From a virus, in IMG/VR virus record IMGVR_UViG_3300033553_000840, positions 1-53,873 of that record: a stretch of DNA of 53,873 nucleotides; one strand, 5' to 3'. Below are positions 9,192 through 17,408 of this stretch, in pieces. Each line of letters begins with the position of its first letter. Positions within the stretch are counted from its first letter, which is position 1. A program made the translations under genes and the position numbers. The notes under the pieces are model-generated. The model had not been told where the DNA came from. It worked only from the letters and a program-made list of their open reading frames with translations, and did no database searches.

Positions 9192-10223
9192 TTGTCCCCA
9201 ATTTACGATAAACCATTTAAAACATTCCATGAACAAATAGCGCTGATGCAAAGCAGGGGCGTTATTGTCAATGAAAACTCCCGGACTTTTGAGATACTCA
9301 GCTCTATCTCTTATTTTTCGCTGATGAATGGTTACAAAAACACTTTTTTAAAGAGTCCAAACGATGATATTTTTATTGACGGAACAACGTTTGAGATGAT
9401 TTACCAAATATATCTTCTGGACTCCTCCATTGCCAGCATTCTACTCAAATACATTCTTATCGTAGAGCGCTCTTTAAAAACAAAAATTGCTTATCGTGTA
9501 TCCCAAGGTTATGACGTACATCATTCAAAATATTTGGATCCAAACAATTATTCTATAAGGCCTGCTCATAAACGTAAAAGGAATGAGCTGTTCAGTTATT
9601 TGTACAATTTTTGCACTAAACCGTACAGAAACACCATTTCTTATTATTATTGCAAAAATAAAAATCATGTGCCACCTTGGATTGTTGTCAATGACATTAC
9701 TTTTAACAAAACAATTGACTGGTATGAAATAATGAAAGCTGCTGACAAAACCTACATATGCCAAAATATGATTCCTTACGGAGATCCCAGTATTAATATA
9801 GCTGACAAAAAAGAATTTTTTATTAATGCACTGCATCTTCTTCATGCTTATCGTAATTCGATAGCGCATGGTAATAAAATTTTTTCTCCCCATATCCGTT
9901 CATTGTTGCCTAAGCGTCCGCTTTTCTTATTAGTCGATGATTCCAGCATTCTTTCAAAAAATGAATATAATGCTGGTTTGGGCCAGAAAGATTTATTTGC
10001 AGTATTTGTTTCGTTGATACTCTTAGTAAATAATATGGATTTAATACGTTCGTTTTTCTTGGACTTATCATATGTGCTAGATGATTACACTGATGAGATG
10101 ATTATGAACAGAACTTATTTTGAACTATTGGGACTTCCAAATGATATTATGGATAGACTGCTTCTTCTTTCCTCTAAAAAAGCTACTTTTTTGAATGACT
10201 ATCCATGTGAAGTAGATTTATAA
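9192..10223 (+). CDS. abiF: Abi_2 / AbiF-like abortive infection HEPN protein
   Basis: 343 residues from a TTG start, 9 nt after AAGGAGG. The opening (KPFKTFHEQIALMQSRGVIV then SISYFSLMNGY) is the Abi_2 (PF07751) signature. A HEPN RNase motif R-x4-H is at residues 221-226 (RNSIAH). Family members stop phage growth, probably by RNA cleavage, and are paired with a structured RNA as here. It is the penultimate gene of the lysogeny operon, between DUF4145/exonuclease cargo and the integrase. The ribosome site lies in the RNA hairpin, implying RNA-controlled expression. Confidence 0.85.
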   Translation: MSPIYDKPFKTFHEQIALMQSRGVIVNENSRTFEILSSISYFSLMNGYKNTFLKSPNDDIFIDGTTFEMIYQIYLLDSSIASILLKYILIVERSLKTKIAYRVSQGYDVHHSKYLDPNNYSIRPAHKRKRNELFSYLYNFCTKPYRNTISYYYCKNKNHVPPWIVVNDITFNKTIDWYEIMKAADKTYICQNMIPYGDPSINIADKKEFFINALHLLHAYRNSIAHGNKIFSPHIRSLLPKRPLFLLVDDSSILSKNEYNAGLGQKDLFAVFVSLILLVNNMDLIRSFFLDLSYVLDDYTDEMIMNRTYFELLGLPNDIMDRLLLLSSKKATFLNDYPCEVDL

Positions 10224-10265: not shown

Positions 10266-12083
10266 ATGAACGCTGTAATCTATGCTCGATACAGTAGCGA
10301 TAACCAGCGGGAAGAATCCATCGATGCACAGGTGCGTGCAATTAAAAAGTATGCGCAGCATCATAGCATGAAAATCATCCATATTTACACCGATGAAGCC
10401 AAAACTGCCACCACGGACATGCGCCCAGGTTTTCAGCAGATGATGAAAGACGCTGAAGACGGGCGTTTTTCCGGTGTGCTTGTTCATAAGCTGGACCGCT
10501 TCGCAAGGAACCGGTATGATTCAGCATTCTATAAACGGCATCTTAAGGTCAATGGTGTTAAGGTGTACTCTGTGCTTGAGAACATTGATGACAGCCCTGA
10601 GAGTATCATTCTGGAAAGTCTGCTGGAAGGGATGGCGGAGTATTACAGCCTTAATTTGGCCAGGGAAGTAATGAAAGGGTTGAGTGAAACAGCCTATCAG
10701 TGTAAGCACACTGGTGGCACTCCTCCCCTTGGGTATGACATTGCACCTGATAAGACTTATGAGCTTAATCTTTTTGAGGCTGAGGCTGTGCGGATCATCT
10801 TCTCCATGTATCTGGAGGGCCATGGTTATGGTGCCATTATCGACAAACTGAATGAGCGTGGTCATAAAACCAAGCTTGGTCGGGCATTTGGGAAGAACAG
10901 CATTCATGACATTTTGAAGAATGAAAAGTATTCGGGGGTTTTTGTTTTCAATAAGACACAACGTAAGGTTGAGGGTAAGCGGAATGGTCATCTGCAGAAG
11001 CCTGACGAAGAAATCATCCGAGTTCCCGGAGGGTGTCCGGCTATTATCACGCCTGAAATGTTTGAAAGGGTGAAAAGAAAAATGGAAGAGAACAAGCATC
11101 GTACAGGGCAGTACAAATCTAAGCGGGTTTATATTCTTTCCGGATTAGTCTTGTGTGGCAAGTGCGGATCGGCCATGGTTGGTAAGCATGCGCGTTCCGG
11201 CAGGAATAAAACTGATTACTCTTATTATGAATGCAACGCAAGGCGCAATAAGCGCACCTGTGATGCGAAACCTATCAGTAAACCCTTCGTGGAAGACCTG
11301 GTGATTGATTTTCTTTATGATAATCTTTTTTCTGATGATGCCATTGGCCCGGCCAGCGATAAGATTTATGAAGATATTCAGAAGTCTTCTCAGCAAGTTC
11401 CGGATGAAGTTAAACAATTTCAGGACCAGCTGAAGGATGCTGATGCAAAAGTTGAGAGTATGCTTCAGTCTGTCATGGATGGAATGTATCACCCGTCAAT
11501 GAAAATTAAGATGAAAGAGTTGGAAGAAAAACAGATTGCCTTGCAGCGAAGGCTGGATGAGGCGGCCAAGATTGACCGGAACCTTTCTTTTACACGGGAC
11601 CAGATTTATCATTTTCTTTCCTTGTATCAGGACATTAAGAACTTCTCTGATCTAAAAAAGAAAAATGCTGTCAATCTGTTTGTTGATAATATTATTGTAA
11701 ATGAAGATGATGTGCATTTGTCGGTGGTTACGCGGCCAGACGCTAAGGGACCGCTCAAAAAAGCAAGAACTACCGGCGAGGACACCGGTAGTTGGGATTT
11801 GTTGGTGGAGACGACCCTTCACCCACAGAGGTACAAAATAGCATACATCTTCACTTGCGGCTTGTTGTGCCGATTGTTTTTTATCGTCACTCTATCGCAT
11901 CTGTATAGTTTTTTATTAGGCTCCCTGTATGGGGGCCTTTTTTTTGCGCAAAAAAATAAAGCCACCCCGAAGGGTGGCGGTGGCCAGGCAGTGAAAGGAG
12001 TAACACTTCTGGCCCTGGCTGGCTATTTAGGGTTCTGCAGCTTTCTTTTCTCTTTTCTCCCGTGCCTTTGTAATTTCTTCTAG
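10266..12083 (+). CDS. int: Large serine recombinase (integrase), C-terminus altered at attachment site
   Basis: 605 codons, ATG after AGAAAGGACG. Resolvase domain with catalytic Ser10 (IYARYSSDNQREES) and RFARNR; Recombinase domain (GGTPPLGYDI, LGRAFGKNSIHDILKNEKYS); zinc ribbon (LCGKCGSAM ... YYECNARR); coiled coil around 380-460. The recognisable family ends near residue 505. The remaining 100 codons are hydrophobic and unrelated (IAYIFTCGLLCRLFFIVTL) and run across an intrinsic terminator at 11918-11945 without a stop. The likely cause is that attP lies in the 3' end of the gene and integration replaced its stop codon. Ends the rightward operon of phage A. Confidence 0.9.
   Translation: MNAVIYARYSSDNQREESIDAQVRAIKKYAQHHSMKIIHIYTDEAKTATTDMRPGFQQMMKDAEDGRFSGVLVHKLDRFARNRYDSAFYKRHLKVNGVKVYSVLENIDDSPESIILESLLEGMAEYYSLNLAREVMKGLSETAYQCKHTGGTPPLGYDIAPDKTYELNLFEAEAVRIIFSMYLEGHGYGAIIDKLNERGHKTKLGRAFGKNSIHDILKNEKYSGVFVFNKTQRKVEGKRNGHLQKPDEEIIRVPGGCPAIITPEMFERVKRKMEENKHRTGQYKSKRVYILSGLVLCGKCGSAMVGKHARSGRNKTDYSYYECNARRNKRTCDAKPISKPFVEDLVIDFLYDNLFSDDAIGPASDKIYEDIQKSSQQVPDEVKQFQDQLKDADAKVESMLQSVMDGMYHPSMKIKMKELEEKQIALQRRLDEAAKIDRNLSFTRDQIYHFLSLYQDIKNFSDLKKKNAVNLFVDNIIVNEDDVHLSVVTRPDAKGPLKKARTTGEDTGSWDLLVETTLHPQRYKIAYIFTCGLLCRLFFIVTLSHLYSFLLGSLYGGLFFAQKNKATPKGGGGQAVKGVTLLALAGYLGFCSFLFSFLPCLCNFF
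11918..11945 (+). terminator. Intrinsic terminator after the integrase
   Basis: AGGCTCCC, loop TGTAT, GGGGGCCT, then seven T. An 8-bp stem with one G-U pair. It ends rightward transcription but lies inside the open integrase frame, so the transcript would have no stop codon. Confidence 0.8.
11946..11978 (-). terminator. Intrinsic terminator of the phage B late operon
   Basis: On the minus strand GCCACCC TTCG GGGTGGC (11961-11978) followed by TTTATTTTTTT. A 7-bp stem with a UUCG tetraloop. It lies 49 bp downstream of the holin gene stop and marks the end of phage B late transcription. Confidence 0.85.
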
Positions 12084-13357: not shown

Positions 13358-13525
13358 TCACCTCCTGAAGTTTTCGCATTTCATACACTTTCTGCATCCA
13401 CAGTCCCAGGACGGCTTTCGTTGTGATAATTCATTTTCTTCCAGCTCCTGCCTGTCCTCAATCAAGCTCATCATTTCCTGTTCAAGTTGATCCAACAGCT
13501 TTCTGATTTTATTGAATCGCTGCAT
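13358..13525 (-). CDS. Small coiled-coil protein with Cys cluster
   Basis: 55 residues. Starts with TAATG overlap on the upstream gene and ends in AGGAGGTGA, which doubles as the ribosome site of the next gene. N-terminal coiled coil (IRKLLDQLEQEMMSLIEDR), C-terminal WDCGCRKCMKCENF, a possible metal site. The double overlap is good evidence that it is translated. Function unknown. Confidence 0.65.
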   Translation of the reverse strand: MQRFNKIRKLLDQLEQEMMSLIEDRQELEENELSQRKPSWDCGCRKCMKCENFRR

Positions 13526-13989
13526 TAAGCTGCCTCTGGTTCCCAGTACCTATTATACGGCTCGTCGCCGTCAGGCACGGTTGTGTTGGCAGGTATCTTC
13601 GAGGTCCATACCTTGCCTTTGTAAGTAACTTGCTCTCCCACTGCATAGGCGTTATGCCCGCCCGTAGGTTGCGTCCATTCAGGGATCACACCGACGGGTG
13701 CATGAGATTTGAAAAGGGCCGGCACTGTGTCAGGCGTCCAGTCGGCCTGTGATGTATGGGCCTGTACGGTTTCGTACAGTGCACCGTGGTAGGCAGCAAT
13801 ATCTCCGACTTTGTAGTTGGTGTCTGGCGCCCAGGCTGGATAGATGCCGACCAATTGTGCCATTTCTTCAGGGGTGAGCTCTGATGTTTTGATCAGGTTT
13901 CTGGTTGCGATTTGGCCTGCTGTGCGGGATGCTGCTCTTTCCTGGTTAAAGACAATGGCTCTTTGCAGTCTTTCTTCGTGGGTTAACAT
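13525..13989 (-). CDS. Tail-associated protein with two chitin-binding-like modules
   Basis: 154 residues. The N-terminal 50 (AIVFNQERAASRTAGQIATR) are helical and XkdW/tail-fibre-accessory like. They are followed by two CBM5/12-type modules: YKVGDIAAYHGALYETVQAH and YAVGEQVTYKGKVWTSKIPA with conserved Trp residues. It lies right after the DGR cassette, so it may be a second carbohydrate-recognising tip protein or chaperone for the diversified protein. Confidence 0.7.
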   Translation of the reverse strand: MLTHEERLQRAIVFNQERAASRTAGQIATRNLIKTSELTPEEMAQLVGIYPAWAPDTNYKVGDIAAYHGALYETVQAHTSQADWTPDTVPALFKSHAPVGVIPEWTQPTGGHNAYAVGEQVTYKGKVWTSKIPANTTVPDGDEPYNRYWEPEAA

Positions 13990-14270
13990 TATACTTCACC
14001 TCCTGTTGGTTGTCCTAGCATGGTGTCAATCACTTCTTGCAGGCGCTGGTTTTCCTGTTCCAGGGCATTTATGCGTTGTTCTTGTTGTAGTTTTTGCCAT
14101 TCCTCTTTGGTGTACTGAGTTTCGTCGTAGGTGTACCAGGTGGATTCATTTTCCTGGTCGTCAGTTCTGGTTTCTTCTTGAATGTTTTCTCTTGCATAAA
14201 CGGTTGTCGGGCTTGTGGTTTCGTCAACTGGCAATGGCTGTTCTGTGCTTTCGGAGCGGTATGTTTTCAT
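13989..14270 (-). CDS. Tail accessory protein with C-terminal coiled coil
   Basis: 93 residues; start lies inside the 3' end of the reverse transcriptase gene (47-bp overlap) with GAGGGGAG upstream. Low-complexity acidic N-terminus (STEQPLPVDETTSPTTVYAR), aromatic centre (WYTYDETQYTKEEW) and coiled coil (INALEQENQRLQEVIDTML). Similar small proteins follow tail fibre genes in Firmicutes phages. It is not like the four-helix Avd accessory protein of DGRs, although its position would allow it. Confidence 0.55.
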   Translation of the reverse strand: MKTYRSESTEQPLPVDETTSPTTVYARENIQEETRTDDQENESTWYTYDETQYTKEEWQKLQQEQRINALEQENQRLQEVIDTMLGQPTGGEV

Positions 14271-15321
14271 TTCGACTAATCTCCCCTCTTGAATATTGTC
14301 TTATAATGGCTTTCATGGCTTTGATCGACACATAAGGCACTACTCTTGTTTTAAATACCTTGTACGTCTGTGAGTGTTTTATCCATCCCAGATAACTGAT
14401 AATTGCGGCCGCATCTTTGAATGTGGCTTTTCCTTTGTTGTAGATGCGCTTTGCTTTACGTGTGATGCGCAACATCAGGCTTTTTCTTAATATTGTTTTG
14501 TGCCTGAAAAACCTGAATCCCATAAAATCCAGCGCTCTTGCATCTAGCTTAAATACCTGCCAGTTTTTCTTGATTTTGAGGTTCATTTTTTCCAGGTACC
14601 CCATGATCATGCGCACGGCTTTGTGTAGTTTTCTTTTGTTGGGCCCAAACAGAATCATATCGTCCATATACCTCATGTAGTACTTTATTTTCAGCACTTG
14701 TTTTATGAGGTGGTCCAGCTTTTGCAAAATGAAATTAGCCAGCCATTGGCTTGTTAAATATCCGATTGGCAGGCCTTTTGGGTAGCTGTCTATGATGGTG
14801 TCCAGGAGCCACAACATTTTAGGGTCTTTGATGATGGTTCTGATACTGGCCTTGGCCAGGGTGTGCGTAACTGATTCATAAAATTTTGTGATGTCTAATT
14901 TTGCACTGTATTTAGTGTTTTTCCTGTCTTTTCTGATCCACTTTTCAAGTTTTGGTTTTCCAAAATGCGGTCCTCTGCCCGGCATGCTTCCGCAGGAGTA
15001 GGCATATGCACCTTTTTCTATAACTGGCTGTAATTGTAGTACCAGTGCCCAGTGTATGATTTGGTCTGGATAAAAATCGATTTTTGTAACTTTCCGCTGT
15101 TTCTGTCCCGCTCCTTCTCTAATAAAGGATTCCTTGTATGGGCATGGTTTGTATGTGCCGGTGACCAGCATTTTATGAATTTGGTATGCGTGTTTTTCAA
15201 CGTCTGCCAATACTTCCTGGACTTCTTTTCTATCTTTCTTGTCTTCAGCTGCTCGGTAAATTGCAGCTGTTATGTTTTGCATTGATATTGTTCTTTCAAA
15301 TATGTGTTTTTCCGTCTTCAT
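14224..15321 (-). CDS. DGR reverse transcriptase
   Basis: 365 residues, ATG after AAAGGACATCGTGG. Retroviral-type RT fold with palm motifs: LDITKFYESV (142-151, first catalytic Asp), GLPIGYLTSQ (183-192, the DGR variant of the RT motif with SQ) and YMDD (218-221). The C-terminus has the basic thumb region (ALDFMGFRFFRHKT...). It makes error-prone cDNA from the TR RNA, miscopying adenines, and the cDNA replaces VR in the tail gene. Gene order VR, TR, RT on one strand matches known DGRs. No Avd gene lies between VR and RT. Confidence 0.93.
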   Translation of the reverse strand: MKTEKHIFERTISMQNITAAIYRAAEDKKDRKEVQEVLADVEKHAYQIHKMLVTGTYKPCPYKESFIREGAGQKQRKVTKIDFYPDQIIHWALVLQLQPVIEKGAYAYSCGSMPGRGPHFGKPKLEKWIRKDRKNTKYSAKLDITKFYESVTHTLAKASIRTIIKDPKMLWLLDTIIDSYPKGLPIGYLTSQWLANFILQKLDHLIKQVLKIKYYMRYMDDMILFGPNKRKLHKAVRMIMGYLEKMNLKIKKNWQVFKLDARALDFMGFRFFRHKTILRKSLMLRITRKAKRIYNKGKATFKDAAAIISYLGWIKHSQTYKVFKTRVVPYVSIKAMKAIIRQYSRGEISRNENIPLRKHRTAIAS

Positions 15322-15330
15322 CCACGATGT

Positions 15331-15471
15331 CCTTTCTTATGGCCTATGGGTGGTTCGAATTCGCATGAACCTACTTGACCCATCCAGTTTCGGCTTAATT
15401 TTTACCTAGGGGTAAGGAATATGGCACACCATCGTTCGAGATGATTTTTGTTACTTTTCCATAAGAATGGA
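15331..15471 (-). other. DGR RNA spacer closed by TR/RBS inverted repeat
   Basis: On the minus-strand RNA the bases directly after TR (TTCTTATGG, 15467-15459) are the perfect complement of CCATAAGAA (15342-15334), just ahead of the RT start. Across one A-A mismatch the pairing continues: TCC at the TR end (15471-15469) with GGA (15333 side, 15332-15330), the core of the RT Shine-Dalgarno. The 116-nt spacer is thus a closed domain. A 14-nt copy of TR (15353-15366) lies within it. Confidence 0.6.
15353..15366. repeat. 14-bp copy of a TR segment in the spacer
   Basis: GTTCGAATTCGCAT is identical to 15487-15500 inside the TR. It contains the self-complementary CGAATTCG, so the RNA copies in TR and spacer can pair with each other. 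Confidence 0.75.
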
Positions 15472-15576
15472 GAGCGACGCGCCAATGTTCGAATTCGCAT
15501 TGGAGAGCGGATTGTTCAGATTCACCGTGCCGGCCCCGCAAAGAGAGCCATTGTTACGATTGCCACTGACAAGCGC
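15469..15576 (-). repeat. DGR template repeat (TR)
   Basis: 108 bp in the noncoding gap between the tail gene and the RT gene, 218 bp from and parallel to VR. Of 108 aligned positions 94 are identical. Read on the minus strand it has AAT/AAC codons at the sites that vary in VR (for example AATCGTAACAAT against GCTCGTGGCTAT). The 3' end is GC-rich (GGCGCGTCGCTCTCC), as expected of the IMH* part, after which TR and VR diverge. It has 21 adenines on the transcribed strand, 12 of them changed in VR. Confidence 0.92.
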
Positions 15577-15600
15577 TGCGCATGTGTGCCATATCCCTAT

Positions 15601-15665: not shown

Positions 15666-17408
15666 TTAACTGGTCTTCTCAAGGAAGGAGAGCGACGCGC
15701 CAAAGTTCGAAGTCGCAAGGGAGAGCGGATTGGACACCGTCACCGTGCCGGCCCCGCAAAGAGAGCCATAGCCACGAGCGCCACTGACAAGCGCCCACTT
15801 TATAGTGCCTCCAACTGCGTACCAAAGTCCGCATGTATAGTACGTTGTTGCTGATGCACCGTTTGTGTCCGGGATGAATCCTAAATCTTCAACGATTTTT
15901 GCATCACGCAGATACCCGCCTGATCCGCCTGTTGGAAATACGCCGGTAGGTGTGTAGCCGGCGGGCATTACATTTTCGTCTGGTGTCGCTGGTTGCAGGT
16001 ATGGCGGTGTTTTTCTGACGTGTATTTCTCCATTCAGTGCCAGGAGCATGCCGCTCATTCTTTCCCAGTAGTTACCCCAGTAGTTTTCGATGTAGAACAC
16101 TTTTACCGCCTGGGTTGTAGTGCTGTAACCGTGGAATTGGCCTTTTCCTTTCAGGGCTCCTGGTGCTATGTAAACACCTGAATCGCTGTTCCCGTTTCCA
16201 AATGTCAATTGATCTGCTGTTGTTTTGCCTATGAGCCATAGCAGGTAAGTGATGTAGTCTCGTTGCGATTTGTAACCTATATGCCATCCAATCCCGTTTT
16301 CTTCCGCTCTTTCGATTTCTATTTGTCCTGTTTGACTGGCCATGACCGCACCCGTTGCCAGTGACCGAAGACGTGGCGCTACATACGATCCGTCAAACAT
16401 TGCTTTGTACATGTAATCCTGTATGTTTCCATTTTCGTCAGTAAATGCATGGGCGTGGTAGCTTGAATCGTACTGCACGTTTGAAAAAACAATATACTCA
16501 TGTGTTGCGTCTTCCCATTCTTTTATCCATAACCGTTTGAACTGGCTCATTGCATTTCCTGCAAAGGCTGTGCTTCCGATGTCCGAGGCTGTTCCGTCGG
16601 CTTTTTTTGTTTGATCGTTTCGGTCTAGTCGGTAGGCGACGGTACCATCGTAGTTTAGCATGACGGGGGTGTTTATCCATTCGCAGAAGCCTCTCCATGA
16701 TCCGTAATTAAATTCGTCTGCTGAATAGTTCATGCCGGCCGGGATCATGCCTACAGCGTCGTATAGGTATTCCACCCGTGTAAAGGGGTTCGAGTCGTTT
16801 TTGTCGATTTTTATGCCGTATCGGAATGTGCCAGGTGTGCCGGCGCTGATAATGCCATTTTCGTCAATAGTGATGGTGTTTCCGTCTACTTTTACGTGGC
16901 CTAGGGCTGCGTCTGTTGCTTTATCGTTTTTGTGCACATTAAAATCTTGTTGCGTTACATATATTCCCGATTCCACTGTTATGCTTACATTTTCCGCTTC
17001 CCCAATTGTTGTCGTAATATTGTGTATCGATTCAATCACTGTTGATCCTTGATCTGCAGGTAAGTAGTCTGCAAATGCCCCAGCATTTGTATAGCAATAT
17101 AGTATTTCTCCTTCGTCTGGGTCATTTGCAAATATGCCAATTTCTCTCACAAAAAATCCCTCTGCAAGATCTTCATTTGTTACATATATTCTTATTCTTA
17201 CTGTTCCATCTCCAATCACTGACATATCTCCTATGTCCAGTGTTTTTTTCTCACTTATGAGCACGTTCAAATCTTTTATTTCCTGTTCTGGTTCCAGTGT
17301 TCCGTCACCTATGCCAGATCTAGTGAACTGCAGTTGTGTTCCTATTTGGGCTTTTGCCTGTAATGCTAATCCCTTATTTGTTAGTTGAATGTTCGGAAAA
17401 TCCGCCAA
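15666..17408 (-). CDS. DGR-diversified tail (receptor-binding) protein
   Basis: 580 residues. The N-terminus (NIQLTNKGLALQAKAQIGTQ, LQFTRSGIGDG) is the phage tail-collar/fibre attachment type found downstream of gpI. The C-terminus from about 480 has the DGR target pattern: GGSGGYLRDAKIVEDLGFIP, TTYYTCGLWYAVGG and the variable segment ALVSGARGYGSLCGAG to ASLSF, expected to form a C-type lectin fold. VR covers the last codons to 10 before the stop. The protein probably sits at the tail tip or fibre end and binds the host surface, with ligand contacts diversified by the DGR. Confidence 0.9.
   Translation of the reverse strand: MADFPNIQLTNKGLALQAKAQIGTQLQFTRSGIGDGTLEPEQEIKDLNVLISEKKTLDIGDMSVIGDGTVRIRIYVTNEDLAEGFFVREIGIFANDPDEGEILYCYTNAGAFADYLPADQGSTVIESIHNITTTIGEAENVSITVESGIYVTQQDFNVHKNDKATDAALGHVKVDGNTITIDENGIISAGTPGTFRYGIKIDKNDSNPFTRVEYLYDAVGMIPAGMNYSADEFNYGSWRGFCEWINTPVMLNYDGTVAYRLDRNDQTKKADGTASDIGSTAFAGNAMSQFKRLWIKEWEDATHEYIVFSNVQYDSSYHAHAFTDENGNIQDYMYKAMFDGSYVAPRLRSLATGAVMASQTGQIEIERAEENGIGWHIGYKSQRDYITYLLWLIGKTTADQLTFGNGNSDSGVYIAPGALKGKGQFHGYSTTTQAVKVFYIENYWGNYWERMSGMLLALNGEIHVRKTPPYLQPATPDENVMPAGYTPTGVFPTGGSGGYLRDAKIVEDLGFIPDTNGASATTYYTCGLWYAVGGTIKWALVSGARGYGSLCGAGTVTVSNPLSLATSNFGASLSFLEKTS
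15687..15794 (-). repeat. DGR variable repeat (VR)
   Basis: Last part of the tail gene, aligned without gaps to TR (+218). Differences: 12 at TR adenines and two adjacent ones (15737, 15738) at a T and a C. Changed codons, TR to VR: AAT-GCT, AAC-GGC, AAT-TAT, AATCTG-ACGGTG, AAC-TCC, AAT-CTT, AAT-ACT, ATT-TTT. Replaced residues are spread over the predicted ligand surface, which shows that the cassette has been active. Confidence 0.92.

Follow-up and report, generated by a model that had tools for sequence, protein, structure and literature searches.

In the 53,873-nucleotide virus record IMGVR_UViG_3300033553_000840, analysed at its full length and referred to here as the window, the 3' end of the template repeat (TR) of a diversity-generating retroelement (DGR) is complementary to a segment ahead of the reverse transcriptase (RT) gene. 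This pairing, termed b:b', is conserved in dozens of related phage DGRs, as judged by sequence comparison, and its RT-proximal arm b' is probably the primer arm for cDNA synthesis, relocated in this clade to the ribosome-binding site of the RT gene. A second helix, a:a' (15598-15584 with 15429-15415), which was missed in the original prediction, brackets the TR. Both helices are supported by covariation, and together they can form a pseudoknot around the TR. The DGR, the RT-18 motif and self-priming in BPP-1 are already known.

The elements of the locus (Table 1) are arranged on the minus strand in the order phage tail gene ending in the variable repeat (VR), TR, 141-nt spacer and RT gene. In the best ungapped aligned stretch of the two repeats 13 of the 15 differences fall at TR adenines, and the element is therefore a DGR. 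Its RT is of the DGR type with a YxDD motif (YMDD in translation), and the relatives of this RT are phage DGR RTs; the region most likely encodes the template RNA of the DGR of an RT-18-type prophage. Neither the genome of the window, which is 75% complete, nor any of 11 clade genomes gave a match to Avd (NF033474) over the cut-off, and the best score of the Avd model among the genomes examined, seen in one of them, was 78.2 against a cut-off of 80 bits. The 3' end of the RT gene, a location of Avd in some DGR phages, is overlapped in the window by an acidic 93-aa ORF (13989-14270; phrog_20201, unknown function) that matches no Avd model. An ORF just downstream of the RT in the prophage tail module (13525-13989) encodes a chitin-type carbohydrate-binding module (PF02839, 9.6e-18). 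Two further candidates were recognised by eye only, an Abi_2-type abortive infection protein (ORF 9192-10223) and, adjoining it, a large serine recombinase-like ORF (10266-12083).

Table 1. Features of the DGR locus in the window.
Feature	Position	Strand	Remarks
DGR reverse transcriptase	14224..15321	-	365 aa, YMDD motif; PF00078 3.6e-16, phrog_1423 2.3e-103
A + GGA: mismatched A (candidate primer terminus) and Shine-Dalgarno bases	15330..15333	-	From sequence; VR complementary to the A
Rfam RT-18 RNA (RF03021), structured spacer core	15333..15414	-	60.8 bits, gathering score 41.3
Arm b' (CCATAAGAA), putative primer arm preceding RT gene	15334..15342	-	Pairs with b
Arm a' (GTGTGCCATATTCCT), directly 5' of first RT-18 hairpin	15415..15429	-	Pairs with a
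Arm b (TTCTTATGG), TR 3' end (IMH*-like)	15459..15467	-	Pairs with b'
TR	15463..15576	-	114-nt copy of VR, 86% identical
TR adenine opposing spacer A 15333	15468	-	VR has T at 15686
TCC, outer three pairs of b past the A-A mismatch	15469..15471	-	From sequence
Arm a (AGGGATATGGCACAC), just 5' of TR	15584..15598	-	Pairs with a'; inverted repeat I2
Target gene, phage tail fibre-like protein	15666..17408	-	580 aa; phrog_5302 tail protein 3.6e-85
VR, 3' end of target gene	15681..15794	-	TR/VR comparison

The pairing between the TR end and the segment preceding the RT gene is present as originally described: on the minus strand, 5'-TCC A TTCTTATGG-3' (15471-15459) faces 5'-CCATAAGAA A GGA-3' (15342-15330), giving a duplex of 9 bp, an A-A mismatch and 3 bp with an energy of -14.0 kcal/mol. 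It was returned as inverted repeat I1 by the repeat search, and an equal score was reached in four of 2000 dinucleotide shuffles of both segments. The additional TCC/GGA pairs that had been noted past the mismatch, reaching the Shine-Dalgarno GGA, also exist in the window. Among the homologous loci they recur in L034, L039, L041, L090 and L093, and overall they are not conserved above chance, with two to three outer pairs in 18 of 48 loci, approximately the chance level. Arm b had been placed directly after the TR; it does lie at the TR end, but its first four to five bases are within the TR/VR homology, which extends to 15463. When the segment from the TR end to the RT start is folded alone, the nine b:b' pairs have probabilities of 0.91-0.99. 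Including 15598-15584 abolishes them in a nested fold, since they are crossed by a:a', which is the stronger helix. Owing to this crossing, folding the entire stretch into one nested structure was not accepted as a test. A local hairpin at the TR end (UCCAU-UCUU-AUGGA, -4.7 kcal/mol) competes in the window, yet is not conserved.

To follow the pairing in other DGRs, relatives of the RT were taken from viral and genomic contigs, TRs were identified by their adenine-specific mismatch to VR, and the arms were then read. Across 65 dereplicated homologous DGRs each arm pairs far better with its own partner than with those of other loci (z about 12; 9.3 after thinning to RTs less than 65% identical and 5.9 at less than 55%), although related loci are not independent of one another in these or the other covariation and signature statistics. 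The pairing also withstood the comparison of substitutions on one arm with those on the other. In fixed register 91.2% of b:b' cells remain paired, against 73.3% when shuffled, and compensatory double changes occur at eight of the nine pairs; when the b' partner is slid by one to three columns, at most 57% of cells are paired. These cells were counted on an arms-only alignment with artificial linkers, and the fixed registers were picked by pairing, which makes the comparison across loci the cleaner evidence. Whole-spacer alignment with MAFFT misregistered the arms by at least one base and was left out of the pair counts. Examples of b/b' combinations from homologues are TTTCATTAG/CTAATGAGA, TTGTTGC/GCAACAA, TCTTGAATC/GATTCAAGA and TTCTATCC/GGATAGAA; the AAGA/UCUU core is nearly invariant, and the poorly fitting loci are L097, L136, L138 and a few others. 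An unbiased window scan places the partner of the TR end at -30..0 relative to the RT start and the partner of the pre-TR segment about 75-120 nt upstream of it, and within the RT-18 clade no further spacer window covaries with the TR end. The hankyphage clade is represented by six dereplicated loci, too few for a covariation test. Closure of the spacer into a domain by b:b', as first proposed, is well supported by this covariation.

Helix a:a' has a duplex energy of -24.5 kcal/mol and covaries with z 18.6 over 61 loci, compared with 0.4 to 2.6 for control pairings, with double changes at all 14 of 14 pairs. It is also found in the BPP-1 clade (z 8.2) and the cr10 clade (z 6.4), where a' again stands directly before the first spacer hairpin. 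In most loci the TR, when delimited by VR homology, begins approximately 3 nt after a and extends approximately 5 nt into b. The order a-TR-b-a'-b' means that the two helices cross, as in a pseudoknot, and as they occupy different bases they can coexist in that form or alternate. Outside the central papers on the BPP-1 RNA and the RT-N motifs, the literature examined holds no description of a TR-flanking pseudoknot in RT-18 or RT-17 DGRs.

The RT-18 covariance model scores above its gathering score in the window spacer and in 14 of the 20 homologous loci searched; a covariance-model search with Phage_DGR (RF03022) gave no match in the window at E values up to 1. The Rfam RT-18 model ends short of both TR-flanking helices. 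Its first b' base (15342) lies at the edge of the closing stem, and b' (CCATAAGAA) appears as an unpaired tail because its partner is outside the model, in the TR. A 14-nt sequence, ATGCGAATTCGAAC (minus strand; 15353-15366 and 15487-15500), is repeated exactly in the TR and in the spacer's RT-18 hairpin, whereas the other 64 homologous loci share at most 9 nt; this repeat, which includes the palindrome GAATTC, might mediate a loop-loop contact or be the result of conversion or chance.

The assignment of b' as a primer arm draws on its relationship to VR. Adenine-specific TR/VR differences reach up to arm b, and fixed TR/VR differences lie just outside it. At the first base outside b:b', VR is complementary to b' and TR is mismatched in 52 of 61 loci (permuted b': mean 31.6, maximum 42); as registers were picked by TR:b' pairing, the TR mismatch is there by construction, but the VR match to b' is not. 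VR tracks the changes in b', with A to T 38 times and G to C 13 times (Fisher p 7e-9 for A to T versus G to C). The related group of DGRs with RT-17-type spacers behaves likewise, with 28 of 37 loci showing complementarity of VR to b' at the TR mismatch (mean 14.1 and maximum 23 on permutation; p 3e-5). In the window TR reads TCC-A-TTCTT, VR TCC-T-TCCTT and the complement of the spacer TCC-T-TTCTT. The literature examined, the central BPP-1 RNA papers apart, contains no mention of VR:primer complementarity.

The same signature occurs at the established primer of BPP-1, in which an internal spacer adenine primes at IMH* (PMC12875486). In this phage the VR sequence TGACCACCT is the exact complement of the spacer sequence AGGTGGTCA, which ends at Sp position 56. 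We take the BPP-1 primer adenine to be Sp position 56 (SpA56), in agreement with our own count. In 35 relatives of BPP-1, with the register set by the spacer adenine and a CTGTG motif and not by pairing, VR matches the spacer at frequencies of 0.83-0.91 over the seven positions up to the primer adenine and 0.00-0.09 over the three past it, and the TRs of this clade carry mismatches to the spacer inside the VR-complementary stretch. The point at which VR switches from following the spacer to following TR is thus the primer end in BPP-1; in the RT-18 clade this point is the base after b' and sometimes also the next, and in the window the primer end could lie anywhere from 15333 to 15330.

We consider it likely that the TR is bracketed by the pseudoknot, that b:b' serves as a template-primer duplex and that cDNA primed from b' favours VR. 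The duplex would most likely present the template to its primer; the RNA would end, or be opened, at the adenine that directly follows b' (15333), and RT would extend this RNA end into the TR, so that the mutagenised cDNA would carry b' at its 5' end. This b' RNA would be complementary to the 3' end of VR across one or two positions at which TR is mismatched, a complementarity that is present in the sequences. If the b' RNA stays on the cDNA it may aid in finding VR, while the mismatch would discourage return to TR, and a resulting preference for VR over TR in transfer would account for the fixed difference between IMH* and IMH. As b' adjoins the ribosome-binding site of the RT gene, the RT leader might also be lost or masked in a transcript that serves as template.

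It is rather unlikely, though the most serious of the alternatives, that b:b' is a structural closing helix that docks RT and holds the TR end, with priming elsewhere. Covariation shows only that the pairing matters, and the near-invariant AAGA/UCUU core is what would be expected of a protein-binding element; such a helix nevertheless leaves unexplained why VR, located in another gene, is complementary to b' exactly where TR is not, and why the same signature is found at the BPP-1 primer. That b:b' acts mainly as a translational switch, hiding the RT ribosome-binding site, seems improbable to us. The end of b' lies a median of 10 nt from the RT start and no more than 20 nt from it in 60 of 65 loci, and the Shine-Dalgarno GGA of the window is paired with TCC, but b' is 28 to approximately 48 nt upstream of the start codon in L078, L133 and Lactobacillus phage LBR48, the last of which has a separate AGGAGG, and complementarity to VR is not required of a switch. 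Least credible, to the point that we give it hardly any weight, is the reading in which b' owes its conservation solely to a role as Shine-Dalgarno-like leader and matches the TR end by coincidence. The purine-rich AAGAAAGG-like sequence ahead of the start codon might suggest as much; the own-versus-cross pairing (z 12, with flat controls), the double changes at eight of nine b:b' pairs and the absence of a b' match at the same place in the BPP-1 clade speak against it, and as a sole explanation the leader is refuted by the covariation.

The coupling of RT translation to the state of the TR RNA, also part of the original prediction, is possible, in that pairing or priming at b' may limit translation; the position of b' allows this in most members, although it is not universal. 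The RT-18-like DGR of phage LBR48 (L226, 1-821), in which the TR-end partner TAAGGA lies about 48 nt before an RT start with its own AGGAGG, is a natural case of such a partner without ribosome-binding-site overlap. If b' is the primer arm, its location at the RT leader would raise a conflict between use of the same transcript as template and its translation into RT.

If b' is indeed the primer arm, the primer sites of the large RT-17 and RT-18 groups could be located from sequence, the long-noted IMH/IMH* difference would be simply explained, and the stretch of RNA required for laboratory reconstruction of non-Bordetella DGRs would be defined as running from the pre-TR arm to the base after b'. 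We offer more tentatively, and as something that may well not hold, a general rule for DGRs whereby the primer RNA at the 5' end of the mutagenised cDNA complements the 3' end of VR and TR is deliberately mismatched, so steering the product to VR. If this were true, the primer RNA itself would direct the product off TR and onto VR, giving the meaning of IMH versus IMH*, and the primer site of any DGR would be readable from sequence alone; in RT-17 and RT-18 systems, with the primer relocated to the RT ribosome-binding site, every priming event would remove an RT mRNA leader, a built-in brake.

To our knowledge, Bordetella BPP-1 is the only DGR system in which the priming of reverse transcription has been worked out in detail. 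The RT-17 (RF03020) spacers of cr10-like DGRs share the order seen in the window, including a:a'; their b:b' ahead of the RT (z 1.9-5.4, varying with the windows compared) is shorter, mostly of 4-8 bp, and has a UGCU:AGCA core in place of the UCUU:AAGA core of RT-18. BPP-1 (Rfam Phage_DGR RF03022) resembles the window in having the TR followed by a structured spacer and then the RT gene, and in BPP-1 IMH* pairs with a spacer arm that ends at the primer adenine and to which VR is complementary. In contrast to the window, BPP-1 carries Avd between VR and TR. Its primer arm precedes a' in a nested a-b-b'-a' order, whereas in RT-18 and RT-17 DGRs it sits at the spacer's 3' end; a search of the BPP-1 clade for a segment beside the RT that pairs with the TR end gave none, and no BPP-1-type primer arm before a' is seen in the RT-18 clade, where the TR-end partner is at the RT start. 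The suggestion that the TR end is presented for priming as in Bordetella is supported indirectly, through the VR:b' signature and its counterpart at the BPP-1 primer; because the BPP-1 primer arm precedes a', the analogy is functional rather than positional.
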